Translations under genes and position numbers: made by a program | The notes under the pieces: model-generated | The model's input: only the letters and a program-made list of their open reading frames with translations | The model's database searches: none | What the model was told of the DNA's origin: nothing | Virus record (IMG/VR): IMGVR_UViG_3300012039_000007 | Coordinates: 1 to 42,091 of that record | Source of the DNA: a virus | Reading direction: 5' to 3' (one strand) | DNA: 42,091 nucleotides | Part shown: positions 1 through 42,091 of the stretch, piece after piece | Position numbering within the stretch: the first letter of the stretch is position 1 | Layout: each line of letters begins with the position of its first letter

Positions 1-123
1 CTGACTGGTACGAGTCCATGTCCCTGTGGCGGCACACTGCCGGCACATGGGCAGGTGCAGTAACAGTCAACCTGGCAGGTCAGTCTGGCAGCTCGCTTAA
101 CATCAATGCGACCAACGGCGATA
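1..123. repeat. Terminal direct repeat, left copy (circularity)
   Basis: Bases 1-123 are identical to 41969-42091. The repeat lies within the coat gene and keeps its frame. This is what an assembler leaves when it closes a circular or circularly permuted genome, and is not expected of a true terminal repeat placed between genes. Confidence 0.95.
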
Positions 124-620: not shown

Positions 621-1370
621 ATGAAAACACTACAGAAGTTGCTCACAGTTGCAGGCTTCATTCTGGCATTCGCTCTTGCGGGCAATGCTCAAACTGCGTT
701 GGTGCAAACAACGCTTTCCGCAGCCATCAACTCTTCGCAGACGAATATTGTACTAGCGTCTGTGACTGGCTTGGCTCGCAACACCTACGGCATCTACATT
801 GATCGAGAATTCATGACTATCACTGCCGTAAACACTACCTCTAGGGTTGTTTCAGTCGTTCGTGGCGCTAACGGCACTCGTGGCACTTCACACGCCGCGA
901 GCACCATGGTGCTATACGGCGTAACTGGCGCTAGCTCTGGAGGCTTTCAGAATTACGACCCTTACGGCTCGTGCGTTACTGCACAGCAGCAATACACGCC
1001 ATGGGTGAACGTTCTGAATGGAAACCAATGGCTGTGCTCTACGGTTACACTGACTTGGGTTCCTGGTTGGGGTAACTATGACGCCGAGCAAGCGGTTACT
1101 ACGCTGGTTGCTTCGGCAGCTGGTGCAATTCTGCCTAGCGGACCACTGTTCCACGTAAATGGTACGCAGGCAGTAACGGGCTTTACGGTACCTGTTGGTT
1201 GCAACGCTACAGTCAGAGGTGGGTGCAGCTTCACTATTATTCCAGATGCTGCTTTCACTTGGACTACTGCTGGCAATATTGCAGACTCAGGTACAGCTGT
1301 GGCTAACCAAATTATTAAATTCATTTGGGATGCTACAAACAGCAAGTTTGTACAGTTGCAAAGCGAGTAA
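621..1370 (+). CDS. Signal-peptide-bearing head/decoration-type protein
   Basis: A 249-residue protein starting 6 bp after the coat stop. Residues 1-23 form a clear Sec signal peptide: MK start, hydrophobic core (AGFILAFALAG), then a site reading GNA/QT. The next 70 residues follow a beta-rich pattern (TTLSAAI...TNIVLASVTGLA...VVRGANGTRGTSHA) that recurs in phage proteins encoded just after the coat gene. The rest is Thr/Val/Gly-rich beta with several Cys (CVTAQ, LCST, GCNATVRGGCSF) that could form disulfides in the periplasm. Position suggests a virion accessory or decoration protein. The signal peptide argues instead for export. The function is not established. Confidence 0.75.
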   Translation: MKTLQKLLTVAGFILAFALAGNAQTALVQTTLSAAINSSQTNIVLASVTGLARNTYGIYIDREFMTITAVNTTSRVVSVVRGANGTRGTSHAASTMVLYGVTGASSGGFQNYDPYGSCVTAQQQYTPWVNVLNGNQWLCSTVTLTWVPGWGNYDAEQAVTTLVASAAGAILPSGPLFHVNGTQAVTGFTVPVGCNATVRGGCSFTIIPDAAFTWTTAGNIADSGTAVANQIIKFIWDATNSKFVQLQSE

Positions 1371-3435: not shown

Positions 3436-5226
3436 ATGCCACGCTTTGGTTTTGTTGGTCCTTCTTACGCATCGCAATCATCTATACAGAATGCCGAGGA
3501 GTGCTATAACTTTTACGTTGAGAATTCAGAAGTTGCAGGAAGTGAGTCACCCCGCGTGCATTATCCAACTCCTGGACTTGATGACTTTGCAACTGGTTCC
3601 GATCTTCCCTCAAGAGGTACGTGCACAACAGACGGAAGAACGTTTCACGTATCTGGCGCAAAGTTCTTTGAGATTCTTTCTGATGGTTCGATTACTAATG
3701 TTCAAGATGTTAGCAACGATGGCCTGCCGGCATGGCTCGTGTTCAGTTCAAATGGCGAAGTATTGGTAAACAGCGGAAAGCGCTGCTACGTGTTTCAGCT
3801 TGCAACCAATACATGGGTGCCACTTATACCGGCAACGTTTTTACAGCCTAACGTTGTGCAGGTTGCACATTGCGACGGGTATTTCTTCGCTCTATTTGAA
3901 AATAGCAACCAGATTCAAGCGTCCAATTTGCTTGATGCAACGACTTGGAATCCATTATCGTTTACTAACGTTACTGTGGTTCCAGGTAATACGGTTGCAA
4001 TCTTCGTAGATCACAGAGAGCTGTGGATTCATGGCATGACGAAGAGCGCCGTATACGTTAATAGCGGAGTTGGCGGAGGCTCGCTTGGCTTTCCGTTCGT
4101 TCCTCTTGCCGGGGCAACAATTGAGACTGGCATTGCAGCTCGCGCTTCTGAGGTGCAACTTGACAATACTATTTTTTGGCTTGGCTCCGACGAAAGAGGC
4201 AACGGGATTGGATGGAAAGCAAACGGCTATACTCCTGCTCGCGTTACTAATCATGCTGTTGAGTTCGATATCCAAAATAAAGTAATGAGTGATGCAATAG
4301 CTTTTAGCTATCAAGATCAAGGCCATTCGTTTTGGCAAATTTCATTTCCAACGCAAAACAAGACTTGGGTATACGATGTTTCGGTTGGTTTGTGGCACAG
4401 AAGGGCGTTTTGGAATATAGCAAGCGGCGTATTTGACGAGCACTTGGCGCGTACGCATACTTTCAATTTTGGAAGGCATCTGGTAGGGAGCAGGTCTTCT
4501 AACAAGATTTATGATATGTCAATAGAGCATCTCGACGATGCTGGCTCACTAATTCGCAGGTTGCGGCGCGCGCCAGATGTTTCGGCAGAAGGAAAGTACA
4601 TCTATCACAGTGAGTTGCAAGTGTATTTAGAATCAGGTCTTGGTCCGCAGCCGCCACTTACTGGACCAAACTTTTGCGATGCACCAGTAGGAGTGCAATC
4701 TTTTGTCCTCCAAGATCCAGACGGAGTTAATTGGACAATAACTGTAGACGATTCAGGGGTATTGCATTCGGCTGTCGGCGGAACGAATGTTGCTACAATC
4801 ATACTCAAAGACAACGATCCCATTCCAACAACTGCATGGCTTGTTGGCATTGACATTTCTGGACAATTAACGACTACAGCGGTGCCGTTTTTTTCAAGCT
4901 ATCCGCAAGCCGTGTTTATGGCAACCACTGGTGGCAATTTTCCAATGAATTTGACTGTGAATGTTGCTGGATTACTTCAAACGACTGTTCCAGTTCATTA
5001 CAGAGACCCCCAGATCGTGCTTCGTTGGTCCGATGATGGCGCAAAGACTTGGAGTAATGAGTATACGCGCAACTGCGGCAGGGCAGGTCAATACAAGAAG
5101 CGCGTGCGTTGGGGTGTTGTCGGCGGCTTAGGCCGGGCGCGCAACAGGGTGTATGAGGTGTTCATGACTGATCCCATACCGTGGCGTCTTGTGGACGCGT
5201 TCTTAAAAGCTAAGGGGGCACAGTGA
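3436..5226 (+). CDS. Tail hub / packaged-DNA stabilisation protein, P22 gp10-like
   Basis: A 596-residue protein of the Phage_stabilise (gp10) family, which forms the hexameric tail hub that closes the portal channel. The N-terminus (FVGPSY...NAEECYNFYVE, then a TPGL motif near residue 48) and the beta-propeller-like repeats up to about 390 fit the family. The C-terminal 70 residues (IVLRWSDDGAKTWS, RNCGRAGQY, RVRWGVVGGLGRARNRVYE) are especially diagnostic. The stop overlaps the next start by 4 bp, as GTGA. A roughly 120-residue segment near 400-520 looks like an insertion and could be an extra surface domain. Confidence 0.88.
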   Translation: MPRFGFVGPSYASQSSIQNAEECYNFYVENSEVAGSESPRVHYPTPGLDDFATGSDLPSRGTCTTDGRTFHVSGAKFFEILSDGSITNVQDVSNDGLPAWLVFSSNGEVLVNSGKRCYVFQLATNTWVPLIPATFLQPNVVQVAHCDGYFFALFENSNQIQASNLLDATTWNPLSFTNVTVVPGNTVAIFVDHRELWIHGMTKSAVYVNSGVGGGSLGFPFVPLAGATIETGIAARASEVQLDNTIFWLGSDERGNGIGWKANGYTPARVTNHAVEFDIQNKVMSDAIAFSYQDQGHSFWQISFPTQNKTWVYDVSVGLWHRRAFWNIASGVFDEHLARTHTFNFGRHLVGSRSSNKIYDMSIEHLDDAGSLIRRLRRAPDVSAEGKYIYHSELQVYLESGLGPQPPLTGPNFCDAPVGVQSFVLQDPDGVNWTITVDDSGVLHSAVGGTNVATIILKDNDPIPTTAWLVGIDISGQLTTTAVPFFSSYPQAVFMATTGGNFPMNLTVNVAGLLQTTVPVHYRDPQIVLRWSDDGAKTWSNEYTRNCGRAGQYKKRVRWGVVGGLGRARNRVYEVFMTDPIPWRLVDAFLKAKGAQ

Positions 5227-7700
5227 GAAGGTATTTTACAATTGTCTTGTGTTTGCTACTTTTAGTTGGCGCTTGCGATGCGCAGGTTGTACGTACGTTC
5301 ATCTCTACTACGACTGTCGCCAACCTACCTCCCGCTGCTACGAATATAGATATTTTATTCTATGTCATAGATGGAAATGACGAAGAGGACTGCACTGTAG
5401 GCGGCGGCGCGTTCACCGTACTATGCAGGTCCACTGGTTCCGTATGGGATAACGTAGGCTCTGGCGGCGGTGGTGGTGGCGGCTTCAACGGTGGGACTGT
5501 TACAGGCAACACTTATTTTACAAGCGGCATTCCATCGTTCGATGTTCTCTGTGTTAATAGCGCCGTACCTGATACGCAAGCTTTCAGGGATGCTCTCAAT
5601 GCTTCAACGGTAACTGATATAGGTGTGCGTCGAGGACCGATTCGCATATGGGGTGACGATGGCTGTCAGTTTAACGGAGCGGCAATTACTGAGTTAGCCA
5701 ACGTAGCTTATGAGACGTTTTCTTGGACTACTGTAGAGCAGTACACAGACGTAAATTTTACCAGCAGTCTCACGATTTCAGGGAATCACAAGCCCATGCT
5801 GTGGATAGGTAAGCATGGAGCAGATGCCGATACTAGCTTTATGCGAGGCCCGGCAGCAAATATTTCAAAGAGTGTTGGCAATTTCCCGATATTCGATTTC
5901 TTTGGAACGAAGAATCAAACCCTTTCCGGCTTAACTCTTCGAGGCTCTGGTACTGAACCTACCGTTTTGTACCGCAGCAACAATGCAACTGATGTTCAAG
6001 ATACTCAGATGATTATCAGTAATTCTGCCATTATTGCAGAAACTGACGGAACTCCAGCGATCAAGATTATTGGTACGCCGCCTCCGCCACAAAGCACTAC
6101 TAATTTTGATTTCACTTTTTCAGCTAATACATATTCGTCGTTTAATTCAACTACGCCATCAATCGTCATAGTAGACAGTGGGAACATTGCCATAGTTGGA
6201 CCGCAAACAGTATTTCTGAACGGTGGGGTTACCATAGAGAATATTCATGCCCCGCGCTCTGGAAACCTGTACATAAGCGACGCATACACTGAAGCATTTA
6301 GCGGTCCCCTGGTTGAATCTACAGGATCAGTCAACGGGATATTTTTAACTAACATTGAGTTTGCCGATTCTATCGGGGCAAGTTATCTCATAAAGAATAA
6401 CGGTGGTGGCGCTGGACTTGGAGGGGTGTATATCAGTGGCAATATTGCAGGTGACGCTACTGGAGTTTACGATCCAACTAGCGCCCAAATAGCGACATTG
6501 CCGTTTAGTAGAATTGGCCAGCTGGAAATGTCATCTCTTGCGTTGCCTTCATTTCTTACTTACCCAGTTAGCTCCGTTGGGGCAAATTTAATTGGCCTAC
6601 ATCAAGATGTACGACGTTCGTTTGGGCCAAGAATTGTTCGCCATGTAAATCTAGCTAGCTATACTCCAACAACAAATTCTGGAAGTGGAACTATCACTTC
6701 TACTGGAATACCAGATCCTACTGGTGGCACTGCTGCGCACAGGGTCGTGGCTACTGCCGGAACATACGATGTTAAGTTTTATAGGGATACGGTAACTCCG
6801 GCTGTTGGTGATGCTTGGATTTACGGAGTGTGGGCTAGGGCGAATACGTCCACTGGGTATTTCAATACAACTGGTCCTGTTTCTTTGGGTACTTCTGGCA
6901 GCGTTACGGTTAAAAGTATGACTGCAAATGATATGGGACAGTTTGGTACATATCAGGATTGGAAGTATTTTCTAAATATCATTAGGGTGACTGCCACGGT
7001 GGGGGATATAGAAGTAATCGCTACCGGATCAACTACAACATCAACGGAAACGGATTTCTATGCACCTGTTTTAGTTAGGGTCACGGCTGCGCAGGGGCTG
7101 AGTGACGCTGAAATATTATCCTATGCAATGTCACTTGCCCCTTACTCTCCAACTTGCAGCGTAGGCGATCTATGCAACGTAAATGGTGCAGTTATTTCTT
7201 CAGTTTCAGATACTGCGTACGGACCTTCATGGAACGGCGTCACGACAATCGCGCCTAGCAAAAATGCCGTTTACGATCAATTTGTAGCTACCCTTGCTGG
7301 ACCTGTAGCAACGGCTACGGCCTTAGCAGCAGACCCTGCCGACTGTAGCGCTGGACAAGCAACGCGTGGCATTAATGCTTCTGGCGTAGCGCAGAATTGC
7401 ACGAACATCGTTATAGCGGTTGCGAATGGAACAATTGCCCTGGCTACTGCTTCTATTCCGGCAAACGATTGCGCCACCGTGCAAACAGCTGCGGCCACTG
7501 GTGCGCTTTCAAGCGATACGATGGACTATATACCAAATGCCAGTATCAAAGGCGTGACTGGTTATACGCCAGCAGGTACTTTAACAGTAACTGGATACAT
7601 TACTGCCGATACTGTGAATTTTGATGTGTGCAATAAAGATCAGTCAAACCCAGTAACCCCTGGCGCAGTAACGCTTCGTTGGGCGGTGCATAGACCGTGA
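5223..7700 (+). CDS. Exported tail-fibre/spike protein with C-terminal TPGAVT module
   Basis: An 825-residue protein with a GTG start coupled to the gp10-like gene. Residues 1-21 are a Sec signal peptide (hydrophobic CLLLLVGACDA, then Q). Next come a phage fibre-type segment with DCTVGGG, a Gly hinge (SGGGGGGGF near 80), a long beta-solenoid-like body, and a beta-sandwich-like region near 480-640. The last roughly 100 residues share an architecture (a Cys, a VCN motif, then TPGAVT) with the genes at 14439 and 35759. The position after the tail hub is where needles, fibres or spikes are encoded, so a receptor-binding role is inferred. A cleavable signal peptide on such a protein is anomalous. 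Confidence 0.7.
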   Translation: MRRYFTIVLCLLLLVGACDAQVVRTFISTTTVANLPPAATNIDILFYVIDGNDEEDCTVGGGAFTVLCRSTGSVWDNVGSGGGGGGGFNGGTVTGNTYFTSGIPSFDVLCVNSAVPDTQAFRDALNASTVTDIGVRRGPIRIWGDDGCQFNGAAITELANVAYETFSWTTVEQYTDVNFTSSLTISGNHKPMLWIGKHGADADTSFMRGPAANISKSVGNFPIFDFFGTKNQTLSGLTLRGSGTEPTVLYRSNNATDVQDTQMIISNSAIIAETDGTPAIKIIGTPPPPQSTTNFDFTFSANTYSSFNSTTPSIVIVDSGNIAIVGPQTVFLNGGVTIENIHAPRSGNLYISDAYTEAFSGPLVESTGSVNGIFLTNIEFADSIGASYLIKNNGGGAGLGGVYISGNIAGDATGVYDPTSAQIATLPFSRIGQLEMSSLALPSFLTYPVSSVGANLIGLHQDVRRSFGPRIVRHVNLASYTPTTNSGSGTITSTGIPDPTGGTAAHRVVATAGTYDVKFYRDTVTPAVGDAWIYGVWARANTSTGYFNTTGPVSLGTSGSVTVKSMTANDMGQFGTYQDWKYFLNIIRVTATVGDIEVIATGSTTTSTETDFYAPVLVRVTAAQGLSDAEILSYAMSLAPYSPTCSVGDLCNVNGAVISSVSDTAYGPSWNGVTTIAPSKNAVYDQFVATLAGPVATATALAADPADCSAGQATRGINASGVAQNCTNIVIAVANGTIALATASIPANDCATVQTAAATGALSSDTMDYIPNASIKGVTGYTPAGTLTVTGYITADTVNFDVCNKDQSNPVTPGAVTLRWAVHRP

Positions 7701-9628
7701 TTAGGCTTCTCTTAATAGCTCTTCTGATTCCTTCACTCGCCCTTGGGCAAGTAGGCATTTCTATTCCCGGCCCATCGAATTACAACACCCCAACCGTGCC
7801 CACTGATCAGTACTGGACTGGCACTCTTGCGAATGAGCGCGCTACCGATTGGACTTTGGCAGGCGTCGAAGGCGGCATACCATCAAGTGGGTGGATGCAG
7901 TGCGGAGGAACAATTGCCGCATATACCGGCTCTGGCGGCACAATACAGTCAGCAATAGACGCTTGCGGCGACAATGAGTATGTATTGTTAGGCGCTGGAA
8001 CGTTCACGCTTTCCAGTGGCTTCTCTCTCGATCACAACATGGCAGTGCGCGGGAGTGGAAGTAACTCCACCATTCTGGTTATCAATGGCGAGACGATCAA
8101 CGACACTTGCGGATACTTCTATACAGCCGCGATTGGTTTCTGTACAAGCTCTAGTCCTGTACCTGAAACAACAGCGAATTGGACAGCTGGCTACGCTTTG
8201 GGAACGACGCGTATAACCCTGAGTGCTTCTAGTGGCGTTGTGGCTGGAACAATACTGAGGCTTAATCAGCTCAATGAAGCAAGCGATGGATATCCGGCAG
8301 CAGGCGATATTTACATTTGCACTACAGCATCTACCTCGTGCGTTGCGCAAGGTGGTGGTTATGGCTTTGGAGTAGCGGGTCGCGCAACCTCGCAGCTCGT
8401 TAAGGTTACTAATGTAGTTGGTGGGAACGTATTCGACATTACGCCACCTATCTCTATACCAGATTTCAGATCAGGACAGACGCCGCAAGCAGTATGGGCA
8501 TCAAGCGCAGCCAATATCCTTACAAATGCCGGAATAGAGGATATGTCGCTTACTTTTACCGGACTTTCTGGGTCGGATGCGGCAGGCCTTGAAATAACAA
8601 ACACTCTAAATTGTTGGGTGCGCGGCGTTAGAACTGTGTACTCCAGTTCGAATAGGCACTACACCTCAATCATTATCAACTCTCTGTTCTTTACGTTTCA
8701 AGACAGCTACCTATACGATCCATCTACCATCTTGATTGCGTCGTATCCAATTTCTCCAAATAACTCTGGCAGTTTGCTAATTCAGAACAATATATTCCAG
8801 ACTGTGACCATACCAATTGTGGTTAATGGTCCCATGCAGAACAGCGTTATTGCCTACAACTTCGCAGTAGGCAGCTCAGGGCCGATGGTCGCCATGCATG
8901 GTGGTGGCGACATGAAGAACCTGCTTGAAGGAAACGTAGCCACAAGCTTCTGGACTGATGCGAACCATGGAACGCACGCTCTCAATACAACGTTTCGCAA
9001 CGCGTTCATAGGCACGCGCTACGGCCCTGCGTGCCCTTCGGTTTGCACGCCTTTACAGATCCAGTCGTTTGGCAGGCTGTTCAACCACGTTGGAAACGTG
9101 ATGGGCGATGCTTCAGTTTACAGCGTGTATCAGAGCCTTCTAACTTGGGCCGGGAATGTAATTTACATTCTTGGTTGGCAGGGCAATGCTAGCGGCCAGA
9201 TACCACCAACCGATGCGTATGTTGCTTCTGGTTTGCTGCGTTGGGGTAACTGGGATCAGGTTACTTCTACTGACGACAATACAGACGGCGATCAGACTGG
9301 AACGCGTTGGTGTGGAGATTCAGGTAACACGAACTGGGCAAAGTGCACTGCTGGAACTGAAGTTCCTAGCACATTGACAAGCTATGCAAACGAGATACCG
9401 GCAAACGAAAGCTTTGCAGATTCATTCTATCTTTCTGCAAAGCCAGCATGGGTAGATGCAATGAAGCCCTGGCCGTTGATTGGCCCTGATGTTTCTGGCG
9501 GCCTGGTGGCCGATCTTGGTGGGCATCTCGTTACTACGCCAGCGATGGACTGTTATTTAGACGTAATGAGTGGACCTTCTGACGGCAGCGGCTCTGTATT
9601 AGCTTACGATTGGACGATGTGCTACTAA
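7697..9628 (+). CDS. Exported right-handed beta-helix tailspike / pectate-lyase-like protein
   Basis: A 643-residue protein with a GTG start overlapping the previous stop. Residues 1-17 form a signal peptide ending LALG/QVG. Residues 70-120 (GGTIQSAIDACGDNEYVLL) carry the N-terminal cap motif of pectate-lyase-like beta-helices. From 250 to 470 there are repeated Asn-ladder turns (LLIQNNIFQ, NSVIAYNFA, LLEGNVA, FNHVGNVMG). The tail (FYLSAKPAWVD, WPLIGPDVSGG) resembles secreted beta-helix proteins of Acidobacteriota, from memory of the family. A polysaccharide-depolymerising or receptor-binding spike is likely. Catalytic residues could not be assigned. Several Cys pairs suit periplasmic folding. 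Confidence 0.72.
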   Translation: MIRLLLIALLIPSLALGQVGISIPGPSNYNTPTVPTDQYWTGTLANERATDWTLAGVEGGIPSSGWMQCGGTIAAYTGSGGTIQSAIDACGDNEYVLLGAGTFTLSSGFSLDHNMAVRGSGSNSTILVINGETINDTCGYFYTAAIGFCTSSSPVPETTANWTAGYALGTTRITLSASSGVVAGTILRLNQLNEASDGYPAAGDIYICTTASTSCVAQGGGYGFGVAGRATSQLVKVTNVVGGNVFDITPPISIPDFRSGQTPQAVWASSAANILTNAGIEDMSLTFTGLSGSDAAGLEITNTLNCWVRGVRTVYSSSNRHYTSIIINSLFFTFQDSYLYDPSTILIASYPISPNNSGSLLIQNNIFQTVTIPIVVNGPMQNSVIAYNFAVGSSGPMVAMHGGGDMKNLLEGNVATSFWTDANHGTHALNTTFRNAFIGTRYGPACPSVCTPLQIQSFGRLFNHVGNVMGDASVYSVYQSLLTWAGNVIYILGWQGNASGQIPPTDAYVASGLLRWGNWDQVTSTDDNTDGDQTGTRWCGDSGNTNWAKCTAGTEVPSTLTSYANEIPANESFADSFYLSAKPAWVDAMKPWPLIGPDVSGGLVADLGGHLVTTPAMDCYLDVMSGPSDGSGSVLAYDWTMCY

Positions 9629-14357: not shown

Positions 14358-14438
14358 CCATCGAATAGAGTAATAAAGAGCAACGCCAAGTGTCCATTGA
14401 ACAGCGATAGCAAGCAGCAAGTCGTTCAGGGAGCTAAA

Positions 14439-15674
14439 ATGCAGAATGTTCCACAGAAGAGTGAACACAAAGAAAAACGCCTTAGCAGCAGTTGGGTGCA
14501 TTGCGTAATAGTAGCACTTTTAGCAGCCCTAGGCACGTGTGCATATGCGCAAACGCCCGTCCAACTCGCACCTGTGGCTAAGCAGCAATTCTTTGACGCG
14601 AATGGCACGCCTCTAGCTGGCGGCAAAATATACACGTACGCAACTGGCACGACTACGCCGCAAGCAACTTACACAAGCTCAGCTGGCGTTGCGCAGAACA
14701 CAAACCCAGTCATTCTAAATGCTGGTGGCTATACGCCTAGCGCATTGTTTCTTAGCGCTTCGTGCTACAGGTTTGTTGTTCAGAATTCAGCAGGCGTAAC
14801 ACAGTGGACAGTTGATGGGATATGCGTAGGAGTGTTTGCTGCTGGCGATAATACGTTCACTGGCGACAATACATTCACTGGAACTAATACTTTTGATGGA
14901 CCCATAATCACAACAGCTGGCGGCACGCTTGGCGGGACGTTCGCTGGCAATCCAACTTTCAGCGGCGATCCGACATTTTCAGGAAACCCAACTTTTAGCG
15001 GAACTCTGGTAGCGCCACAGTTTGAGTCTAACGTAGCCACAGGCACGCCACCGTTTATTGTGGCAAGCACTACCGTAGTCCCAAACCTAAACGTTGGCCT
15101 TATCAATGGCGTTGCTTATCCTATAAGCCCTTCGTTGCACTCTGTTCCGGTAGTTACTGCCGCGAACACGGTTTCTTATAAGGTCGTTCCCGACTGCCCG
15201 GTACTTGCATTCGACGATGGCACGGATGCTTTCTCGTGCAGCACTACGCTTGACAGTTTGACGTTAACGAATGCAACAATCACTGGTTCAACTCTAGACT
15301 CTAGCGTCATTGGCGGATCATCCGCCGACGCCGCTACTTTCACCACTGCTACAGTTAATACCTCTCTTGTCGTTGGTGGTGGTACTGCAACAACTGCGAT
15401 ACTCACAGGTTCGGCGAGCGTAAACCCTGGCACTATTTCAGATGAGACTTGCGATGACGATCTAGATATAACAGTTACTGGCGCTGATACAAATGACCGT
15501 GTCTTTGCCAGCATTGCAGCTGCAAACGCAACTTCACCAGCTGAGATGCTTCAGATTACATGGTCTGCTTACATCTCGGCCGCCGACACAGTTACGGTAA
15601 GGCTGTGCAACAACGGTGGAAGCAGTGCTACGCCTGGGGCTGTAACCGCTTACGCTGTGGTATTCAAATACTAA
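14439..15674 (+). CDS. Exported tail-fibre protein with fibre repeats and TPGAVT module
   Basis: About 411 residues. The ATG at 14439 has a GGGAG ribosome-binding site and is preferred to a TTG at 14397. After a basic stretch, residues 20-39 form a signal peptide ending CAYA/QT. The mature part begins with the fibre head of many podophages (KQQFFDANGTPLAGGK, IYTYATGTTTPQATY). Next are tandem NTFTG/PTFSG beta repeats (nt about 14850-15008), then NATITGSTLD-type fibre repeats. The C-terminal 90 residues contain a Cys, VRLCNN and TPGAVT and match the module in the genes at 5223 and 35759. This is the clearest case of a virion-fibre architecture preceded by a Sec signal. Confidence 0.8.
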   Translation: MQNVPQKSEHKEKRLSSSWVHCVIVALLAALGTCAYAQTPVQLAPVAKQQFFDANGTPLAGGKIYTYATGTTTPQATYTSSAGVAQNTNPVILNAGGYTPSALFLSASCYRFVVQNSAGVTQWTVDGICVGVFAAGDNTFTGDNTFTGTNTFDGPIITTAGGTLGGTFAGNPTFSGDPTFSGNPTFSGTLVAPQFESNVATGTPPFIVASTTVVPNLNVGLINGVAYPISPSLHSVPVVTAANTVSYKVVPDCPVLAFDDGTDAFSCSTTLDSLTLTNATITGSTLDSSVIGGSSADAATFTTATVNTSLVVGGGTATTAILTGSASVNPGTISDETCDDDLDITVTGADTNDRVFASIAAANATSPAEMLQITWSAYISAADTVTVRLCNNGGSSATPGAVTAYAVVFKY

Positions 15675-17596: not shown

Positions 17597-17601
17597 CTTA
17601 A

Positions 17602-19852: not shown

Positions 19853-19866
19853 TAGAATTGCAAGAA

Positions 19867-22517: not shown

Positions 22518-22522
22518 GGCTG

Positions 22523-22624
22523 CTATCGCCTCCTCTCTAGCCACGTAGCTAAATACATCCCCAAAAAGAAGCCCGAAGCAAATACCGCTGATACCAGCAC
22601 TAACAACTCGAAATCGGTATACAT
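22523..22624 (-). CDS. Micro membrane protein (33 aa)
   Basis: An open frame with one transmembrane helix (LLVLVSAVFASGFFLGMYLA) and a WLERRR tail. It ends 5 bp before the preferred lipoprotein start. The ribosome-binding site is weak. Membrane design and tight spacing support it, but the small size limits certainty. Confidence 0.45.
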   Translation of the reverse strand: MYTDFELLVLVSAVFASGFFLGMYLATWLERRR

Positions 22625-33376: not shown

Positions 33377-33558
33377 GCGAGCCATTCAACACACGCGCCG
33401 AAGTGTACTGCGTGCTATGTGGTTTGGCTTTGTTTTATGTTGAACGGCCTGGCAAAGAAATTACGCTCATCGTCAAGCATCCCGAAAAAACAGAATGCAA
33501 GTTTGATGGCTTGACGTTCTTACCGCCTCGCGTTGAACTAGAAGAGGTGAAGGTTTGA
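33373..33558 (+). CDS. Small Cys-containing protein
   Basis: 61 residues, ATGA-coupled. YCVLCGLALFYVE and TECKFDG supply three Cys in a small beta-rich fold, possibly a zinc site. It ends in a TTGA overlap with the large terminase and so may set its translation. Confidence 0.6.
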   Translation: MSEPFNTRAEVYCVLCGLALFYVERPGKEITLIVKHPEKTECKFDGLTFLPPRVELEEVKV

Positions 33559-35054
33559 ACGCTCTCGCCACTCTTCCACTTGATCTTCAGCTTGCTGATG
33601 AATTCTCAAAGTTCATGCATGATCCACTTGGCTTTGTGCTGTTCGCTTATCCGTGGGGCGAGCCTGGCCCGCTTGCGTTGCACGACGGACCCGATGTATG
33701 GCAAGCCAAGCTACTGAAAGAAATAGGAGCGCGTTCCGCAGTAAACGAGTTTGATGGCACCACACCTGTGCAAGCGCTGCGCGAAGCTGTTAGCTCCGGC
33801 CATGGCGTTGGCAAGTCAACCCTAGCAGCGTGGCTTGTTGACTGGATTATGTGTACGCGCCCATTTGCGCAAGGCACAGTAACGGCGAACACGTACACGC
33901 AGCTGCGCAACAAGACTTGGGCGCAGATCAAGTACTGGACTAATCTCTGCATTGCTTCGCACTGGTTCAAGGTAACCGATGACAAGATGTACCACGTTGA
34001 CTTCAAGGACACGTGGTTCTGTGCACCACAGAGCTGCAAAGAAGAGAATAGCGAAGCGTTTGCAGGTCAGCATGCAGCTGGCAGTACGAGCTTCTATCTG
34101 TTTGATGAAAGCTCTGGCATTACCGACAAGATATTCGAAGTCTCTGAAGGCGGCTTGACTGATGGCGAGCCAATGATTTTCTTACTCGGCAACGTTACGC
34201 GTTCGCAAGGCAAGTTTTACAGGGCAACGAATGGCGTAGAGCGTGACAGGTGGCATCGCACGCAGGTTGACTCGCGCGAAAGTAAGTTCACGAACAAAAA
34301 GCAGATCGAAGAGTGGATACAGGATTATGGTGAAGATAGCGACTTTGTGCGCGTGCGCGTTCGCGGCCTCCCCCCGCGTGCTTCGGATGCGCAGTTCATC
34401 GATCACGAGAGGGTGCTGAGCGCACAACGGCGAACGGTCGTCACTCTCCCGACCGATCCTCTCGTGGCTGGTTGCGACCTTGCATGGGGCGGATCTGACG
34501 ATAACGTCATCCGCTTCCGACTTGGCAATGATGCACGCAGCTTGAAGCCGATAAAGATCAAGGGCGAGTTTACGCGCGAGCCTATGGTGCTGACGAATAG
34601 GCTTTCTGATGTGCTGAGTAAAGAGCATGTGTGTGGTGATGGCATTAAGCGTAAGGTGCATATGCTGTTTCTTGACTCTGCTGGCATTGCAGGGCCAATA
34701 GGCGCGAACTTGAGGGCACTTGGGCACCGTAACGTGATGGAGGTTAACTTCGGAGCTGATTCACCTGATCCAAAGTGTGCCTACATGCGCGACTACATGT
34801 GGCAGGGCTTGAAAGAATTCTTGCTTAACGGCGCAATTGATGCGGATGCAGGGCTTGAGACTGATCTTGTAGCTCCGGGCGTATTGCCTGACACGCGGCA
34901 GCGCATCAAGCTTGAGTCAAAGAAGGACATGAAGGCGCGCGGCTGCGACTCGCCAGATGATGCAGATGCCCTTGCGCTAACGTTTGCAGTTAAGGTTGCG
35001 ACAGTCAAGAAGCCAGTTGCAGCGCCCATGCGACCGGCCAGTCAATGGAGTTGA
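33555..35054 (+). CDS. terL: Terminase large subunit
   Basis: 499 residues from a TTG that overlaps the preceding TGA. The ATPase half has Walker A (GHGVGKST, 82-89) and Walker B (YLFDESSG, DE 184-185), then a LLGNVTR coupling motif. The RNase-H-like nuclease half shows D308 in AGCDLAWGG, D374 in FLDSAG and a DSPDDADALAL end motif. It cuts concatemers and pumps DNA through the portal. Subgroup comparison would predict whether packaging is headful. The circularly permuted assembly suggests it is. Confidence 0.95.
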   Translation: MNALATLPLDLQLADEFSKFMHDPLGFVLFAYPWGEPGPLALHDGPDVWQAKLLKEIGARSAVNEFDGTTPVQALREAVSSGHGVGKSTLAAWLVDWIMCTRPFAQGTVTANTYTQLRNKTWAQIKYWTNLCIASHWFKVTDDKMYHVDFKDTWFCAPQSCKEENSEAFAGQHAAGSTSFYLFDESSGITDKIFEVSEGGLTDGEPMIFLLGNVTRSQGKFYRATNGVERDRWHRTQVDSRESKFTNKKQIEEWIQDYGEDSDFVRVRVRGLPPRASDAQFIDHERVLSAQRRTVVTLPTDPLVAGCDLAWGGSDDNVIRFRLGNDARSLKPIKIKGEFTREPMVLTNRLSDVLSKEHVCGDGIKRKVHMLFLDSAGIAGPIGANLRALGHRNVMEVNFGADSPDPKCAYMRDYMWQGLKEFLLNGAIDADAGLETDLVAPGVLPDTRQRIKLESKKDMKARGCDSPDDADALALTFAVKVATVKKPVAAPMRPASQWS

Positions 35055-35055: not shown

Positions 35056-35469
35056 ATGAATAAAATTCTAGTAAGCATTGGATTTCTTTTAGTGTTTGGG
35101 GTTTCAGCGCAAGCGCAGACGCGCAGCGTAACGATTCAGTTTGCAAACAGTCCTACAGCTGGCGTTTCTGGTTACAACGCATATAGAGTGCTGTGCTCTG
35201 CGGTAACGGGAACAACTTGCACACAGTCTGGTACACCAGCAAAGATCAACACAGCTCTTATCTTTTCGCCATTCACAGACAATTCAGTAGTGGCTGGTCA
35301 GAAGTATGAGTATTACATTACGGCGCAGTGCCCCTCTGTGGGATGTAGCCCTGGAATTTCAGGAGAAAGCGTTCCATCTTCAAAGGCGATTGCGAATATT
35401 CCGCCGTTAGCTAACCAGCTACCGGGAGCGCCGCCGAACATTACGATTACAATAGTGAGTACACCATGA
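35056..35469 (+). CDS. Exported fibronectin-III-like protein
   Basis: 137 residues from the ATG at 35056, directly after the terminase stop. A signal peptide (residues 1-21) ends VSAQA/QT. The mature part has an FN3-like order of strands (RSVTIQFANSP...VSGYNAYRVLC, YEYYITAQCP) with four Cys. Single FN3 domains are carbohydrate- or protein-contact modules on phage virions and bacterial surfaces. First of six exported proteins between the terminase and portal genes. Confidence 0.7.
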   Translation: MNKILVSIGFLLVFGVSAQAQTRSVTIQFANSPTAGVSGYNAYRVLCSAVTGTTCTQSGTPAKINTALIFSPFTDNSVVAGQKYEYYITAQCPSVGCSPGISGESVPSSKAIANIPPLANQLPGAPPNITITIVSTP

Positions 35470-35762
35470 GAAAAGTACTTATAGTTTCACTGGCTGCGTT
35501 GCTTTATGCAGCGTATGCCCTGGCCGCTACAGATGGTGCACCTGTGTATATACCAAATGAAATTCAGATGCTGCGCTTGCAGCTTGCGCAATCGAAGGCG
35601 CACACAGCGCAGCAAGCGGCGAACATGGCGCAGCAGGTGTTGAGCTTCAGGCTTGCTGAGCTTGAAGGCGAGGCGGTCAAGGTGAAGCTAGAAAACAAGT
35701 GGCCTGAAACGGTGCAATTCGACAGGGATAACTTAGGGTTTAGAGAGAAGGTGATTCAGTGA
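35466..35762 (+). CDS. Exported coiled-coil protein
   Basis: 98 residues, ATGA-coupled. Signal peptide (VLIVSLAALLYAAYALA/ATDG). The mature part is a single helix rich in Gln/Ala (MLRLQLAQSKAHTAQQAA, MAQQVLSFRLAELEGEAVK), likely a periplasmic coiled coil. It may be a spacer or assembly helper for the neighbours. Function unknown. Confidence 0.65.
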   Translation: MRKVLIVSLAALLYAAYALAATDGAPVYIPNEIQMLRLQLAQSKAHTAQQAANMAQQVLSFRLAELEGEAVKVKLENKWPETVQFDRDNLGFREKVIQ

Positions 35763-36238
35763 AACGTTTTCTACTCACTCTTGCGTTGCTACTCTCCGTA
35801 CCTGTAATCGTGTGGACGCAGAACGGCGCGTACACGACAACGCCAAGCAGCTTCGGCACGCCTGGAACCGTAACGAGCATTGCGACTACTTCACCAATAA
35901 CTGGCGGCACGATTACTACGACTGGCACGATTGCCTGCGCTACTTGCACCATAACTATAGCAAGCGGCGACATTGCGTTGGCAACTGCCGAGATTGCATC
36001 AGGTGCATGTACTTCTGCGCAGACTGACACGGCTACAGGCACGGCAACGACTGATGTGATCATCTACACGCCTGCTGCTGATCCTACTGGGATAGATGCT
36101 TACGAGGTTAGCGCCACTGGCTCTGTGTATATATGGGCATATCCAACATCTAACACAGCCAACTTCAAGGTGTGCAATAACACTGCTGGTGCGCTGACGC
36201 CTGGCGCATTAACGATTAATTGGAAGGTTGTGCGATGA
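35759..36238 (+). CDS. Exported fibre-tip-like protein with TPGAVT module
   Basis: 159 residues, GTG start in a GTGA overlap. Signal peptide (LLTLALLLSVPVIVWT/Q). It then has a tail-fibre-type linker (GTVTSIATTSPITGG, TTTGTIAC), followed by a roughly 95-residue C-terminal module with a Cys, VCNN and LTPGALTINW. That module matches the ends of the fibres at 5223 and 14439. It looks like a free-standing copy of a fibre tip. Confidence 0.7.
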   Translation: MKRFLLTLALLLSVPVIVWTQNGAYTTTPSSFGTPGTVTSIATTSPITGGTITTTGTIACATCTITIASGDIALATAEIASGACTSAQTDTATGTATTDVIIYTPAADPTGIDAYEVSATGSVYIWAYPTSNTANFKVCNNTAGALTPGALTINWKVVR

Positions 36239-36894
36239 AGTTATTGCGCCTAATTGCGTTACTCTTTTTTGTTTGCGGAACTTCGTTCGCGCAAATGCCC
36301 ATGGGTGGCGTGACTGCGAATGCTGCCAGCGGTCCGGTCATGGTTACAGATGACTTTGACCGTGGGGATGCAGACCCAGTGGATGGCAATTGGTCATTAG
36401 TTACTGGTTCAGGGTCACTTGAGATCGTATCAATGGAGGTGTTGCCAACTACCATTAATACCAGTTCAGTTATGGTCAATACAGGCGCAACTTTTCCCGA
36501 CGATCAGTACGCACAGATTACTTCAACATCACCCTCCCTTGCTGGATTCAACTACGCAGGTGTTGTGCTGCGGTACGCAACTGGTGCTAGTACTGGGTAC
36601 CGTGTATTTTGTGGCGCAGCTGGAAGTAGCGATGAGCAGTGCTACATAAGCTTGATGGTTGCTGGTATGAATACAACGCTGGACTCTGTGGCGGGGGCAC
36701 TAGCCGTTGGCGACACACTGCGCGCCGAGATTACAGGCACCACAATAACAGCATACAAGAATGGTATGGCAATAGCCGGGTTGACTGCCACAGATGCAAC
36801 GGTAGCCTCTGGTAGGCCTGGGATGGTCTTATTTGCCTTAATTACTGCGGCAGAGGCATCCCTGGATGACTTTGAAGCTGGCTCGCTTCCATGA
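36235..36894 (+). CDS. Exported concanavalin/LamG-like lectin
   Basis: 219 residues from the ATG at 36235 (ATGA). Signal peptide ends GTSFA/Q. The mature domain (DDFDRGDADPVDGNWSL, VVLRYATG, VGDTLRAEITGTTITAYKNG) is the jelly-roll type found in phage and bacterial carbohydrate-binding proteins (LamG/DUF1080-like). It may bind host or matrix glycans. One Cys pair is present. Confidence 0.72.
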   Translation: MKLLRLIALLFFVCGTSFAQMPMGGVTANAASGPVMVTDDFDRGDADPVDGNWSLVTGSGSLEIVSMEVLPTTINTSSVMVNTGATFPDDQYAQITSTSPSLAGFNYAGVVLRYATGASTGYRVFCGAAGSSDEQCYISLMVAGMNTTLDSVAGALAVGDTLRAEITGTTITAYKNGMAIAGLTATDATVASGRPGMVLFALITAAEASLDDFEAGSLP

Positions 36895-36909
36895 GATACG
36901 TAAAAGGAA

Positions 36910-37044
36910 ATGACTCACTGGCGCTCATGGCTACTCTTGCACAGTACATTTCGAGACCAGTACCACATAATGCGTTTCTTGGAATTTCAGAAAAGAGGCG
37001 CGGCAATGGCAGCCAGAAGCGCGCGCATCAAGTTGACAGAATAG
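36910..37044 (+). CDS. Possible small basic protein in the linker
   Basis: 44 residues (MTHWRSWLLLHSTFRDQYHI, then a basic end) in the 165-bp stretch between the lectin and the next exported gene. In another frame the stretch is open from the ATGA at 36891 into the next gene. Which frame is used is unclear, and the AAGGA is too close to this ATG. Confidence 0.25.
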   Translation: MTHWRSWLLLHSTFRDQYHIMRFLEFQKRGAAMAARSARIKLTE

Positions 37045-37058
37045 CGGAGGCGAATAGG

Positions 37059-37511
37059 ATGCTTAAAAAAGCAAGTATGGCGTTGTTAGTTGTAGCGCTG
37101 GCTTCTAGTGTTGCGCTAGCAGGCGTGTACGCTGATGGTCGCGCTAATCCACTTTCCCCTTCGCAGACAGTAAAGGTTTGGACAGCTGAGTCGCCCACAC
37201 CTGGCACTGGCGCTGCGGCAGCCTCCTCAGCTGTGCTATTAGCGCCCGGTCAGAATCCTCAAGGTGTAACGCCGTTTCACGCTGTTGGTTATTTCAGTGG
37301 CGCACCTGGAACGTTTGAGATTGACGTACAAGGTGCAGATGAGGACGTAAGCGCACGTTATCAGACTTTTAATGGCTGCGCAATAAGCACAGTGGACGCA
37401 ACTAATTTCACGTTTCGCTGTGATGCCGTATCAGTCAGCTCTAAGTATGTACGGTTACTGTTGCGAGCGCGCGGCAATGCGGTAAGCGTTACAGCGTGGA
37501 TTGGCCGATGA
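37059..37511 (+). CDS. Exported beta-rich protein
   Basis: 150 residues from the ATG at 37059, which has a GGAGG site 9 bp upstream and begins a proper signal peptide (MALLVVALASSVALA/G). A start at 36891 would place 56 residues before the signal. The mature part is beta-rich (KVWTAESP, FEIDVQGADEDVS, YVRLLLRARGN) with one Cys pair. No family recognised. It is coupled by ATGA to the barrel gene. Confidence 0.6.
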   Translation: MLKKASMALLVVALASSVALAGVYADGRANPLSPSQTVKVWTAESPTPGTGAAAASSAVLLAPGQNPQGVTPFHAVGYFSGAPGTFEIDVQGADEDVSARYQTFNGCAISTVDATNFTFRCDAVSVSSKYVRLLLRARGNAVSVTAWIGR

Positions 37512-38158
37512 TCAGGTTATTCATTGCACTAGTGGTTCTGCTTTGCACTATTGCGCCATTGCAGGCGCAAACAAAGCTTGCGGTTGATCTAGCTGGTGGT
37601 ACTTGCATGGGATATGAACTGCCTTGCATTGAAACAACTGCGCGCGTTGAGCATTTCATTCGTCAATTCGAAGTACAGGGTTACGGAACGTATACACCAA
37701 CAGATAAGTTGGGCGGTAACAGTTCGAATACTTACATTGCTGGCGCTACTGGCATTGCATGGACTAAATATTTAGGTTTGACGGTAAATGGCCGGCACAC
37801 TTGGCTCAAGTCTGATCAATTCAACAAAAGAGATGCCCGCTTCTCTGTTGGCGCAGTGAAAGCGTTCCGCTGGCTTGATAGCAGCCAGAGACTTTATGCG
37901 GCGTTTGTCATTCCCACTGGTGGATACAACTCCAAAACTGGCATTGAGTCTAATCGTTTGATGGGGCCTGAGTTTAGATGGGAAGCAAATCTGTGGCGAA
38001 ACATTGATTTGCATTTGAAGTTCAAGGTGCTACGAGTTTTGCATCAGGGAAATCCAAGCTGCGATGGCTCGTTAGGTGGTGCAGTAACTTGCCAAAGAAA
38101 GAGCACATGGGAAGGCAGCTCGACTACTGGCATTACATTTACTTGGGGTGTGCGATGA
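37508..38158 (+). CDS. Putative outer-membrane beta-barrel protein
   Basis: 216 residues from the ATG at 37508. Signal peptide ends PLQA/QT. The mature part alternates polar and hydrophobic residues in about eight strands (VQGYGTYTPT, GIAWTKYLGLTVNGRHTW, FSVGAVKAFRWL, RLYAAFVIPTGGY, FRWEANLWRNIDLHLKF, STTGITFTWGV), as in small outer-membrane barrels. The end lacks the usual terminal Phe (WGVR). Phage-encoded outer-membrane proteins can replace or mask receptors. A periplasmic role is the alternative. Confidence 0.6.
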   Translation: MIRLFIALVVLLCTIAPLQAQTKLAVDLAGGTCMGYELPCIETTARVEHFIRQFEVQGYGTYTPTDKLGGNSSNTYIAGATGIAWTKYLGLTVNGRHTWLKSDQFNKRDARFSVGAVKAFRWLDSSQRLYAAFVIPTGGYNSKTGIESNRLMGPEFRWEANLWRNIDLHLKFKVLRVLHQGNPSCDGSLGGAVTCQRKSTWEGSSTTGITFTWGVR

Positions 38159-38241
38159 AAGTTTACTCAGGTTTCAAAGCCTTGATGAAAGACGTAAAGA
38201 ATAAGCCAAAGCCAAAGAAGGGAAAGAAAAAAATTTACTAA
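38155..38241 (+). CDS. Lys-rich micro-protein (28 aa)
   Basis: An ATGA start and a TAATG end tile exactly between the barrel and portal genes. Half the residues in its second part are Lys (DVKNKPKPKKGKKK). It may bind DNA or membranes, or only couple portal translation. Confidence 0.5.
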   Translation: MKVYSGFKALMKDVKNKPKPKKGKKKIY

Positions 38242-40283
38242 TGCCAGAAGAAACACAAAACGACGACATGCTGAAAGAGATACGCGATGAGTATAAGCGT
38301 TATCTCGACGCTTGGCGTGAGCCGCACGAAGAGGGCAGCACCGATATGCTGTATGTGTTGGGTGACCCATGGCCTGCGGAGGAGCGTAAGCAGCGTAAGG
38401 ATAACGACAGGCCGTGCTTGGTGTTTGATGAGCTTGGGCAGTATTTGAACCAGCTAAACAACGACATGCGCGCTAACAAGCGTTCAATACACGTTGCGCC
38501 TGCTGGTAACGGTGCAGATGATAAAACGGCAGAGCTTCATGGGAACATCATTCGCGGCATTGAGTATGAGTCAAACGCACAGGCAGCGTACACCACTGGG
38601 TTTGAGGGCGCTTCGCAGCGTTCGTATGGTTACTGGCGCGTAACAACTGAGTACACGAGTGAGAAGTCTTTTGTGCAGCACTTGCGCATCAGGCGCATTG
38701 CGAACCCTGACTCAGTATTGCCAGATCCAAACTTCAAAGAGTTTGACGCCTCTGACATGCGCGGATGTTTTGTACTTGAGTGGATACCACGCGCGCAGTT
38801 CAAGGAGCGTTATCCTGAGGCCAAGATACAGTCATTCGACATTGAGCATGGCAAGTTGGCGCCTGATTGGATCACTGACGATAACGTACTGACTGCTGAG
38901 TACTGGAAGGTTCGCACGCCGAAAGCGCGGCTGGTGGAGGTGTTAGCTCAAGGACAGCAACTACCACAACAACTGTGGAAGTCTGACCTTCCCAAAGATT
39001 TCAAGGGAATGATTCTCCAGGAGCGCGAATCAGAGAAGCGCCAAATAACTCAGTACATCACGAATGGTCTAGAGATTCTTGAAGAGCGCGAGTGGAAAGG
39101 AAAATACATCCCAATCGTAGGCTGTTTCGGGCGCGAGCTGTGGGTTGATAAGGGTAGCGGAACGCAGCGCGTGTTGCAGTCTCTGATTCGAAAGGCGCGC
39201 GACCCGCAAATGTCAATGAACTATTTGCGCAGCTCTGAGACTGAGCTTATCGGGATGACGCCAAAGTCGCCATGGCTTGCCGTTAGTGGGCAGTTGGGTC
39301 CGCACGAGCAAGAATGGCAGTCGTCGAACAAGGTTCCTATTTCTGTGTTGCAGTACTTGACGCAAGTTGATTCAGCGCCTGGACAGGTTCTAGGTGCACC
39401 TACACGTCAAGACTATGTTCCACAAATTCAGCCACTGGAAGTTGCAGCCGAGAGTTGCAAGCGTGCAATACAGGCTTCAATGGGGCGGTACAACACGAGC
39501 GTTGGAAAGAACGATACAAACGTCAAGAGTGGAATTGCAATAGAAGCACTCGACCGGCAGTCAGATCAGGGTTCTTTTCACTTCTTAGATAACCTAGAGC
39601 GCTCAATTAAGCATACGGGGCGCATTCTGGAAGATTTGATTCCATTCTACTACGATACAGCGCGCGATGTTCCTATACAGACGAATGATGGAACGTTTGC
39701 AACGTTGCGGATTAACGATCCTAAATATCAAGATCCGAAAACGAAGCAAGCAACTCCCAACAGAACAGATCAGGGTGACCATAACGTCACAATTTCAACT
39801 GGGCCAAGTTTCGACTCTCAGAGGCAAGAGGCAACGGCTTTTGCTGACTTGCTCATTTCTAAGTTGCGCGAACTTCCCATTGCGCCACAGCAGATGGCGC
39901 AGCTTTTGGGTTTGGCTATCAAGTTGAAAGATCTTGGTCCGCTGGGCGACACGATGGTACAGATTATTGATCCTCAAGACGGCGAAGAGAAGTTGCCGCC
40001 ACAAGTTGTTGGCATCATCTCGCAGCTACAAGCGCAGAACCAGCAGCTGCTGGCAATTGTGAATAAGCTCTCAATGGAGAAGGCCGCTAAGGTTGTAGAC
40101 AACAAAGCTAAGTTTGACATTGAGAAGCTAAAAGCGGCAACGCAGATCACAATAGAGGACATGAAGGGCTTGCACGAGGCGGACGTTATGAAGATGCAAG
40201 CGCATATTGATCTTGTAAACCAGATTTTGGGAGCTTTACAGCAACCAGAAAGCGCGGACTCACAAGCCGTGCCTATTCAATAG
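38241..40283 (+). CDS. Portal protein, P22 gp1-like
   Basis: 680 residues, similar to P22 portal (725). The N-terminus (YLDAWREPHEEGSTDMLYVLG, RPCLVFDELGQYLNQLNNDM) and the later YGYWRVTTEY and NPDSVLPDPNFKEFDASDM motifs are characteristic. Residues 575-650 are Gln-rich helix (ISQLQAQNQQLLAIVN), suggesting a short barrel extension. Twelve copies form the packaging and ejection channel. It precedes the scaffold-like and coat genes as in P22. Confidence 0.92.
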   Translation: MPEETQNDDMLKEIRDEYKRYLDAWREPHEEGSTDMLYVLGDPWPAEERKQRKDNDRPCLVFDELGQYLNQLNNDMRANKRSIHVAPAGNGADDKTAELHGNIIRGIEYESNAQAAYTTGFEGASQRSYGYWRVTTEYTSEKSFVQHLRIRRIANPDSVLPDPNFKEFDASDMRGCFVLEWIPRAQFKERYPEAKIQSFDIEHGKLAPDWITDDNVLTAEYWKVRTPKARLVEVLAQGQQLPQQLWKSDLPKDFKGMILQERESEKRQITQYITNGLEILEEREWKGKYIPIVGCFGRELWVDKGSGTQRVLQSLIRKARDPQMSMNYLRSSETELIGMTPKSPWLAVSGQLGPHEQEWQSSNKVPISVLQYLTQVDSAPGQVLGAPTRQDYVPQIQPLEVAAESCKRAIQASMGRYNTSVGKNDTNVKSGIAIEALDRQSDQGSFHFLDNLERSIKHTGRILEDLIPFYYDTARDVPIQTNDGTFATLRINDPKYQDPKTKQATPNRTDQGDHNVTISTGPSFDSQRQEATAFADLLISKLRELPIAPQQMAQLLGLAIKLKDLGPLGDTMVQIIDPQDGEEKLPPQVVGIISQLQAQNQQLLAIVNKLSMEKAAKVVDNKAKFDIEKLKAATQITIEDMKGLHEADVMKMQAHIDLVNQILGALQQPESADSQAVPIQ

Positions 40284-41349: not shown

Positions 41350-42091
41350 GTGCCAAACCAATTTTTATTTAGCGATTGGGTATCAATGGAGGCTTTGCGC
41401 TTGCTGCTTAACAAGCTGCAAGTTGCGCAGTTCTTCAACCACAGTTGGGAGAACGATTACAACCAGGAATTCCCTGTAGGTGAAACGATCACGGTGAAGC
41501 TGCCGCAACGCTTCACTATTAGAGATGGGCTGCAATACACACCGCAGAACATCAACCGCATTTCAACGACAATCACAGCGAACAATGTTCTTGGCGTTGA
41601 CTTTCAGTGGGACTCGGTCGAGAAAGCTCTAAAGATGGAGCGTTCGCGCGCTGAGATCAGTAAGCAGTATCTTGAACCTGCAATGGCTCAGATTGCTCAA
41701 GAGATTGACTCTCGTGCAGCTCTGTTCGCCACTCAGAACACGAACAACATTGTTGGACAGTTGGGAATTGATCCTACAACTCCTCAAATTTTCAACGAGG
41801 CACGTGAAAGACTGATTACGCTTTCATGTCCTCCGTCCGACGAAAAGGGAATGATCATTCCTCCGAGATTCAACACGACTCTCGTTCCGGCAATGTCGGC
41901 CCTGTTCAATCCTGCTTCCGAGATTTCGAAGCAGTACAAAGAAGGCAGCATCGGGAAATATGCTGGAGCTGACTGGTACGAGTCCATGTCCCTGTGGCGG
42001 CACACTGCCGGCACATGGGCAGGTGCAGTAACAGTCAACCTGGCAGGTCAGTCTGGCAGCTCGCTTAACATCAATGCGACCAACGGCGATA
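41350..42091 (+). CDS. Major capsid (coat) protein, P22 gp5-like, N-terminal part
   Basis: A GTG start behind AAGGAGCTAGGCA. The first 247 codons are here and the rest is at 1-614 (410 residues in all). The opening NQFLFSDWVSMEALRLLLN, then FPVGETITVKLPQRF and GVDFQWDSVEKAL, matches the P22 coat family. It continues through helices typical of an HK97 spine (SRAEISKQYLEPAMAQIAQ). It should form the icosahedral shell together with the scaffold-like protein. Confidence 0.92.
   Translation, partial: MPNQFLFSDWVSMEALRLLLNKLQVAQFFNHSWENDYNQEFPVGETITVKLPQRFTIRDGLQYTPQNINRISTTITANNVLGVDFQWDSVEKALKMERSRAEISKQYLEPAMAQIAQEIDSRAALFATQNTNNIVGQLGIDPTTPQIFNEARERLITLSCPPSDEKGMIIPPRFNTTLVPAMSALFNPASEISKQYKEGSIGKYAGADWYESMSLWRHTAGTWAGAVTVNLAGQSGSSLNINATNGD
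41969..42091. repeat. Terminal direct repeat, right copy
   Basis: Exactly equal to 1-123. Removing one copy gives a 41,968-bp circle with an intact coat gene. Confidence 0.95.

Follow-up and report, generated by a model that had tools for sequence, protein, structure and literature searches.

Signal peptides on the genes between terL and portal, and on other appendage genes, of a soil phage: a putative Sec-exported virion-appendage set

In the textbook view tailed phages are put together wholly within the cytoplasm, and a run of genes with apparent Sec signal peptides (SPs) lying between the large terminase (terL) and portal genes of a soil phage accordingly raises the question of what their products might do on the other side of the inner membrane. 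The locus belongs to IMG/VR record IMGVR_UViG_3300012039_000007, taken whole (42,091 bp) and referred to here as the window, in which six co-directional + strand open reading frames (ORFs), g1 to g6, fill the interval from the end of terL (35054) to the start of the portal gene (38241) and constitute the island of the present study. The reading preferred here is that the window encodes, genome-wide, a set of virion appendages that would be exported via Sec, pooled outside the cytoplasm and docked at lysis, a proposal to which the sequence evidence gives about an even chance; the export half is predicted with near certainty, and the docking half stands at an even balance or slightly below it. 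Because a coat-like gene reads open across both ends of the record (41350..42091 plus 1..614, 451 amino acids), the window very probably represents a complete, circularly permuted genome. The island and its borders are composed as follows.

33555..35054, + strand: large terminase (terL), left island border, without SP (phrog_2, 8.5e-27)
35056..35469, + strand: g1, predicted exported protein of 137 amino acids, SP MNKILVSIGFLLVFGVSAQA/QTR, four mature Cys, possibly FN3-like (SP caller)
35466..35762, + strand: g2, predicted exported protein of 98 amino acids, Ala/Gln-rich, coiled-coil-like, no mature Cys (SP caller)
35759..36238, GTG start, + strand: g3, short fibre-tip protein with borderline SP, four mature Cys (homology)
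36235..36894, + strand: g4, lectin-like protein, predicted to be exported, SP ...GTSFA/QMPMGG, two mature Cys, CBM66-like beta sandwich (PHROG, Foldseek)
37059..37511 (alternative start 36891), + strand: g5, predicted exported protein of unassigned fold, SP ...SSVALA/GVY, two mature Cys (SP caller)
37508..38158, + strand: g6, predicted exported beta-rich protein, perhaps of the outer membrane (SP caller, homology)
38155..38241, + strand: basic ORF of 28 amino acids, without SP, with a 4-bp overlap with g6
38241..40283, + strand: portal, right island border, without SP (phrog_156, 3.5e-91)

SPs were called with a rule-based heuristic that weighed n-region charge, h-region hydrophobicity and the -3/-1 rule, and that recovered all eight exported N-termini of E. 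coli used as controls with scores of 11.7-14.5. The corresponding scores for g1, g2, g4, g5 and g6 were 14.5, 14.8, 14.2, 13.7 and 14.3, each of these five exhibiting the features of a Sec type I SP (positive n-region, hydrophobic h-region, small residues at -3/-1), and none was returned for g3. An original prediction, made from the letters of the sequence, of six consecutive Sec SP genes was thereby borne out for five of them, g3 being a borderline case with good n- and h-regions and yet a Thr at -1 (VIVWT/QNG). At the background rate recorded for phages related through terL, where 19 of 876 genes (2.2%) scored at least 12, the chance of at least five SP genes among six consecutive ones is about 3e-8. 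The caller assigned no SP to the coat, portal, terL, scaffold-like, ejection-type or replication genes of the window, and two short membrane proteins plus two small minus-strand genes of the window gave SP calls only from internal start codons. No lipobox (Cys at +1, of the T5 Llp or phi80 Cor type) was called in any of the six island proteins. The product of window 21978-22544 (- strand) has a hydrophobic N-terminus with a lipobox-like LFGC motif, and is possibly a lipoprotein.

The predicted 4-bp overlap of most of these genes with the next was present at four of the five island junctions, the exception being g4/g5, where an overlap would require g5 to begin at 36891, which lengthens it by 56 residues; a GGAGG box precedes the start at 37059. 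The 56 in-frame codons upstream of g5 (36891-37058) contain no stop, and may represent a long n-region, as in the tailspike gene 14397-15674 below, or a fused remnant. That the island forms a co-translated set sent outside the cytoplasm was in this respect well judged, since export, cleavage and co-translation of its products are all very probable.

The SP-bearing set is not limited to the island, as four more appendage-type proteins of the window possess an SP, three by the caller and one by eye.

621..1370, + strand: coat-adjacent protein, its gene immediately following that of the coat, SP ...LAGNA/QTALVQ (SP caller)
5223..7700, + strand: fibre of 825 amino acids, ten mature Cys, fibre-tip C-terminus (SP caller)
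7697..9628, + strand: beta-helix-like protein of 643 amino acids (SP caller)
14397..15674, + strand: tailspike, SP at residues 1-51, head-binding domain at residues 52-145, fibre-tip C-terminus (SP by eye, profile)

The last of these is the most informative. Its residues 52-145 match the N-terminal domain of tailspikes such as that of Xanthomonas phage PBR31, and a profile built from 32 homologs matched PDB entries 7eeq ('Tailspike head-binding domain', 2.2e-13) and 9vyg ('Tail spike protein', 1.7e-12); the protein gave no Pfam match, and its fibre-tip-like C-terminus was seen by eye only. Among 102 distinct homologs the domain starts nearly always at residue 2-6 (in almost all of the roughly 90 others, as in PBR31), whereas in the window protein the end of an SP with a long n-region abuts the first residue of the domain, which is at residue 52 of the precursor and would become N-terminal after cleavage. 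The podovirus tailspikes of the PBR31, 7eeq and 9vyg type resemble that of the window in sharing the domain, as judged by profile (E of about 1e-12 to 2e-13), and in a gene position that follows the ejection-type proteins and precedes the lysis genes. They differ from it in that their domain begins at residue 2-6 and holds 0-1 Cys, whereas the window protein has a cleavable SP in front of the domain and has gained a Cys pair.

The same arrangement, with the domain right after an SP, was found in seven further contigs (L116, L119/L120, L171, L203, L222, L232 and L268), the first mature residue being Q in most of these tailspikes; an additional candidate, L162, was rejected on account of its real start (MSVFLSP). 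The invariant anchor residues of the domain are kept in the SP-bearing versions, seven of which (window included) out of eight have exactly two Cys within the domain as against none or one in every other homolog, and the pairs sit at differing positions (GGC with NCATG, KLC with TCSTG, PCAGC, SCYR with GIC). A profile search of seven of the eight contigs returned one head-binding-domain protein each, always the SP-bearing one, and no SP-free copy turned up in the seven; 14397-15674 was the only such protein found in the window genome. In a tree of the domain, seven of the eight SP-bearing versions fell in one weakly supported clade (87/75) with L203 apart, two changes in all.

Cysteine counts provided evidence that the SPs are used. 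An initial comparison in five contigs, with precursors as a control, gave even-to-odd ratios of 25:2 for SP-bearing and 74:81 for other proteins. The ratio was 9:0 in a smaller set from other loci, which shares three of its contigs with the final count. The latter, conducted on eight contigs after omission of SP calls treated as false (coat gene G006 24245, ejection-type protein G361 26511 and membrane protein G363 10394), and subject to heuristic cleavage sites and to the separate counting of some homologous proteins, recorded an even number in 41 of 44 mature SP-bearing proteins (p=8e-10), in 27 of 47 precursors counted with their SPs, and in 122 of 246 proteins lacking an SP. Since even counts appear only after removal of the SP, the data support the view that the SPs are real and cleaved, and that the mature proteins are oxidised, with all of their Cys in disulfide bonds. 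The notion that the N-terminal segments are retained hydrophobic tags or mis-called starts, assembly being cytoplasmic as usual, could draw on the heuristic nature of the calls; it is nevertheless highly improbable, given that parity is even only without the SP (41:3 versus 27:20), that there is no evident alternative start codon between SP and domain in 14397-15674, and that the first mature residue (+1) is Q in 35 of 48 SP-bearing proteins, the exported proteins of Acidobacteriota genomes having the same A/Q cleavage site.

Exported proteins need not end up on virions, and a further explanation would have them as decoys that the infected cell displays or sheds and that mask receptors or bind sibling or incoming virions (superinfection exclusion, avoidance of re-adsorption to debris) while the virion carries other spikes. 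The Cys parity, which supports export, speaks for this explanation, as does the kinship of g6, perhaps an outer-membrane protein, with a protein of an Acidobacteriota genome; the product of window 1437-2435, which is beta-helix-like, lies near the coat region, lacks an SP and has relatives in L003, L005 and L025, could then serve as the virion spike. It is nonetheless judged unlikely, because the virion-anchor residues are kept in the SP-bearing tailspike domains, the search of seven contigs gave no SP-free copy of the head-binding domain, and the coat-adjacent protein occurs at one locus either with an SP (G002, G006, G361, G362 and L012) or without one (G004 and G363), which suggests one virion role reached by two routes. 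By this last distribution, gain or loss of the SP proceeds gene by gene. Among the three roles offered for the island by the original prediction, a periplasmic pool of virion decorations fits best, the anchor domain being conserved behind the SP with no SP-free copy found in these phages; receptor masking or a superinfection block retains some standing, above all for g6.

Under the preferred reading of exported appendages, the tailspike, fibres, coat-adjacent protein and lectin-like pieces would be made as precursors late in infection, cross SecYEG, have their SPs removed, most often at A/Q, and acquire disulfide bonds as they fold in the periplasm. The resultant pool would wait outside the cytoplasm and dock on tailspike-less virions once holin opens the inner membrane. 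Such late docking is physically reasonable, since in P22 the tailspikes are the last parts to be attached, and heads can receive them in vitro. The island would then be an accessory cassette comprising a fibre tip, a CBM66-like lectin, g1, g2 and g5 as exported proteins of uncharacterised kind, and g6, whose destination may be the outer membrane. The sequences support SPs that are real and cleaved, mature proteins that are oxidised, a retained virion-anchor domain and recurrence in Acidobacteriota phages; the broader proposition of a new route for tailed phages, in which receptor-binding and decoration proteins are Sec-exported, oxidised in the periplasm and joined only at lysis to virions otherwise finished, whose completion would thus take place outside the cytoplasm, is put forward tentatively, as a little less probable than its converse.

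The interval between terL and portal was compared across terL relatives, in which it ranges from 105 bp to 6.1 kb with highly variable contents, and in which 13 of 224 called genes had an SP, five of the 13 being the window's own. The earlier statement that the gap is normally empty or holds small cytoplasmic genes was thus roughly right. Because its length varies and it mostly carries SP-less genes in relatives, the interval is an accessory site, the export trait belonging to appendage genes genome-wide. A different cargo at the same site was seen in L004 (6455-12475), where the gap contains sugar-metabolism-like genes (by eye, NeuB-, epimerase- and cytidylyltransferase-like).

Relatives of the island genes were traced to other positions. 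In L011/G006 the gene immediately before terL is a g4 relative, and g3 is a homolog of the C-terminus of an SP-bearing fibre of 1,522 amino acids in L083 (E=2.9e-34) that has a canonical cleavage site (AFA/QDYTTTP) and is followed immediately, inside the tail module of L083/G005, by a g4-like SP gene. The order g3 to g4 is thus seen again in L083/G005; g1, g2 and g5 had no relatives in the loci searched. As the same families sit elsewhere in related phages, the island does not constitute one separate surface assembly, as had been proposed, and would be a portion of the genome-wide SP appendage set located in a variable site. It is improbable, on the same evidence, that the island is a collection of unrelated morons in a terL-portal hotspot, with separate envelope functions and unlinked to the SP-bearing tailspikes: the great variation in interval content and length, the absence of relatives for g1, g2 and g5, and the kinship of g6 with a bacterial genome protein would all be expected of morons, whereas g3 and g4 are kin to fibre and lectin genes sitting together in the G005 tail module, and ten products share an SP style and, with one exception, even Cys counts.

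The layout is repeated in full contigs G362, G002, G004, G006 and G005 (64 kb), with three to six SP appendage genes each. Those of G361 encode a coat-adjacent protein, three tail-module proteins, a tailspike, a fibre of 1,174 amino acids, a protein of 378 amino acids and a small beta-rich protein. The last (L298 17651-18181), situated between the fibre and lysis genes, is by position and type a possible counterpart of g6. G005 has a run of three SP genes, the last of which (L083 8044-15255) encodes a protein of 2,403 amino acids with 54 mature Cys.

The domain labels originally attached to the island proteins fared unevenly, that of fibre tip (g3) and lectin (g4) being upheld and those of FN3 (g1), coiled coil (g2) and barrel (g6) remaining unconfirmed; a Pfam search of all six returned nothing reliable. 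For g1, there was no Pfam or PHROG match, and the FN3 assignment was set aside, as the hit to an SP protein of G362 suspected to be FN3/Ig-like reached only E=0.024; no close relative of g2 was found in the loci searched. With g4, a match to PHROG 2804, a virion structural protein (E=3.6e-9), was accompanied by a structure model of modest quality (mean predicted local distance difference test score, pLDDT, of 55, core 75-83), the best Foldseek matches of which were CBM66 (E=5e-5) and the baseplate of mycobacteriophage Douge (2.8e-4), so that g4 is probably a sugar-binding piece. Two distant relatives of g4 emerged from a direct search of viral contigs, SP-bearing relatives of it lie in L011 and L083, and there was no match among 347 Acidobacteriota genomes. 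The g6 relative in an Acidobacteriota genome other than the two with SP-bearing tailspikes (37% identity, E=7e-31) shares the conserved motif GNPxCDGSLGGxVTCxRKS and lies near a cysteine desulfurase-like gene; a direct search of viral contigs yielded no relative of g6, and the lack of a Pfam match places it in no known outer-membrane barrel family. Its AlphaFold model, computed from two sequences, was beta-rich with a pLDDT of 33, at which a confident outer-membrane barrel was not confirmed.

Cultivated phages offer a parallel. Tunturi_1 and Tunturi_2 (PP887698, PP885685) are plaque-forming podoviruses on an Acidobacteriota (Tunturiibacter) strain (PMC11924767), and like the window they have a tail module with five SP-initiated genes, ORF12, 13, 14 (annotated as 'tail spike' or 'pectin lyase'), 16 and 17 ('virion structural'); unlike the window, they have 63-kb genomes, and they are not close relatives of it. 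In Tunturi_1, these five products contain 20, 10, 21, 2 and 32 Cys respectively, including one within the SP of each of ORF14 and ORF16. No SP was found on the fibre genes of Tunturi_3, which shares its host strain with Tunturi_1, or of Tunturi_4, in the stretches examined, and the idea that the host imposes SPs on fibres was rejected on this account. The main text of the Tunturi paper makes no mention of signal peptides and reports no virion proteomics (PMC11924767), nor were such data for these phages found in the literature. With Tunturi_1 and Tunturi_2 in cultivation, and Tunturi_3 as a built-in control, the export question is testable in culture.

The Tunturi annotations bear on the suggestion that the exported spikes, beta-helix proteins and lectins are pre-lysis remodelling enzymes, which bind or cut host exopolysaccharide or envelope sugars for the exit of progeny. 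The 'pectin lyase' annotation of Tunturi_2 ORF14, the beta-helix and chitobiase-C-terminal Pfam matches of Tunturi_1 ORF17, and the CBM66-like character of g4 speak for it. It fails, however, to explain a head-binding domain behind an SP or the export of the coat-adjacent protein, no catalytic residues were identified, and overall it is considered rather unlikely.

Several observations count against the export-and-docking reading itself. The SP calls depend on a heuristic and not on SignalP, the cleavage site of g3 is poor, and g1, g2, g5 and g6 are without a link to virions. The SP-bearing tailspikes belong largely to one weak clade plus one outlier, which makes the cases partly non-independent. 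The beta-helix-like protein 7697-9628, with its 13 mature Cys, is among the three proteins of the set whose count is odd; the disulfides could also form after lysis; and the virion may have a spike of its own without an SP, for which 1437-2435 is a candidate.

Comparison with known systems placed the components on familiar ground. Lom of lambda and similar outer-membrane proteins are encoded in late operons (PMC12309495), and Lom resembles g6 as a phage-encoded exported protein beside virion genes, differing in that it is a single outer-membrane protein among fibre genes, while g6 has no Pfam family match. SP-bearing endolysins, for example that of Pseudomonas phage UFJF_PfDIW6, are likewise routed via Sec and are active outside the cytoplasm (PMC8951688); these, however, are lysis enzymes, whereas the SP proteins of the window are of virion-appendage type. 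Searches of openly licensed full texts turned up no account of tailspikes with SPs, of tail fibres that are exported, or of either kind in phages of Acidobacteria. The fibre genes around Lom are not known for SPs. The tailspike, fibre and lectin parts are known kinds, their Sec routing is not described in the literature found, and the statement that no described system of this composition was known was matched by the absence of any in the literature searched. Were spikes indeed to travel via Sec and be joined at lysis, ideas on how fibres fold (with disulfides and periplasmic chaperones), on timing (spikes would not bind host sugars within the cell) and on the control of superinfection would need rethinking, and it would help to explain why many soil-phage fibre genes are hard to recognise.

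The host of the window phage is likely to be a member of the Acidobacteriota, since the g6 relative and SP-bearing tailspikes occur in genomes of that phylum. The window terL is 47% identical to that of the nearest described phage and 67% to the nearest in viral contigs, the nearest in named bacterial assemblies being from metagenome-assembled genomes of Eisenbacteria (57%) and Bryobacteraceae (56%). Among the 347 Acidobacteriota genomes, two have an SP-bearing tailspike. One of these two, G255, harbours in its chromosome a phage remnant (L293/L294, joined 11889-22510) whose terS-like and ejection-like genes precede a run of three SP genes, after which come lysis-like genes.

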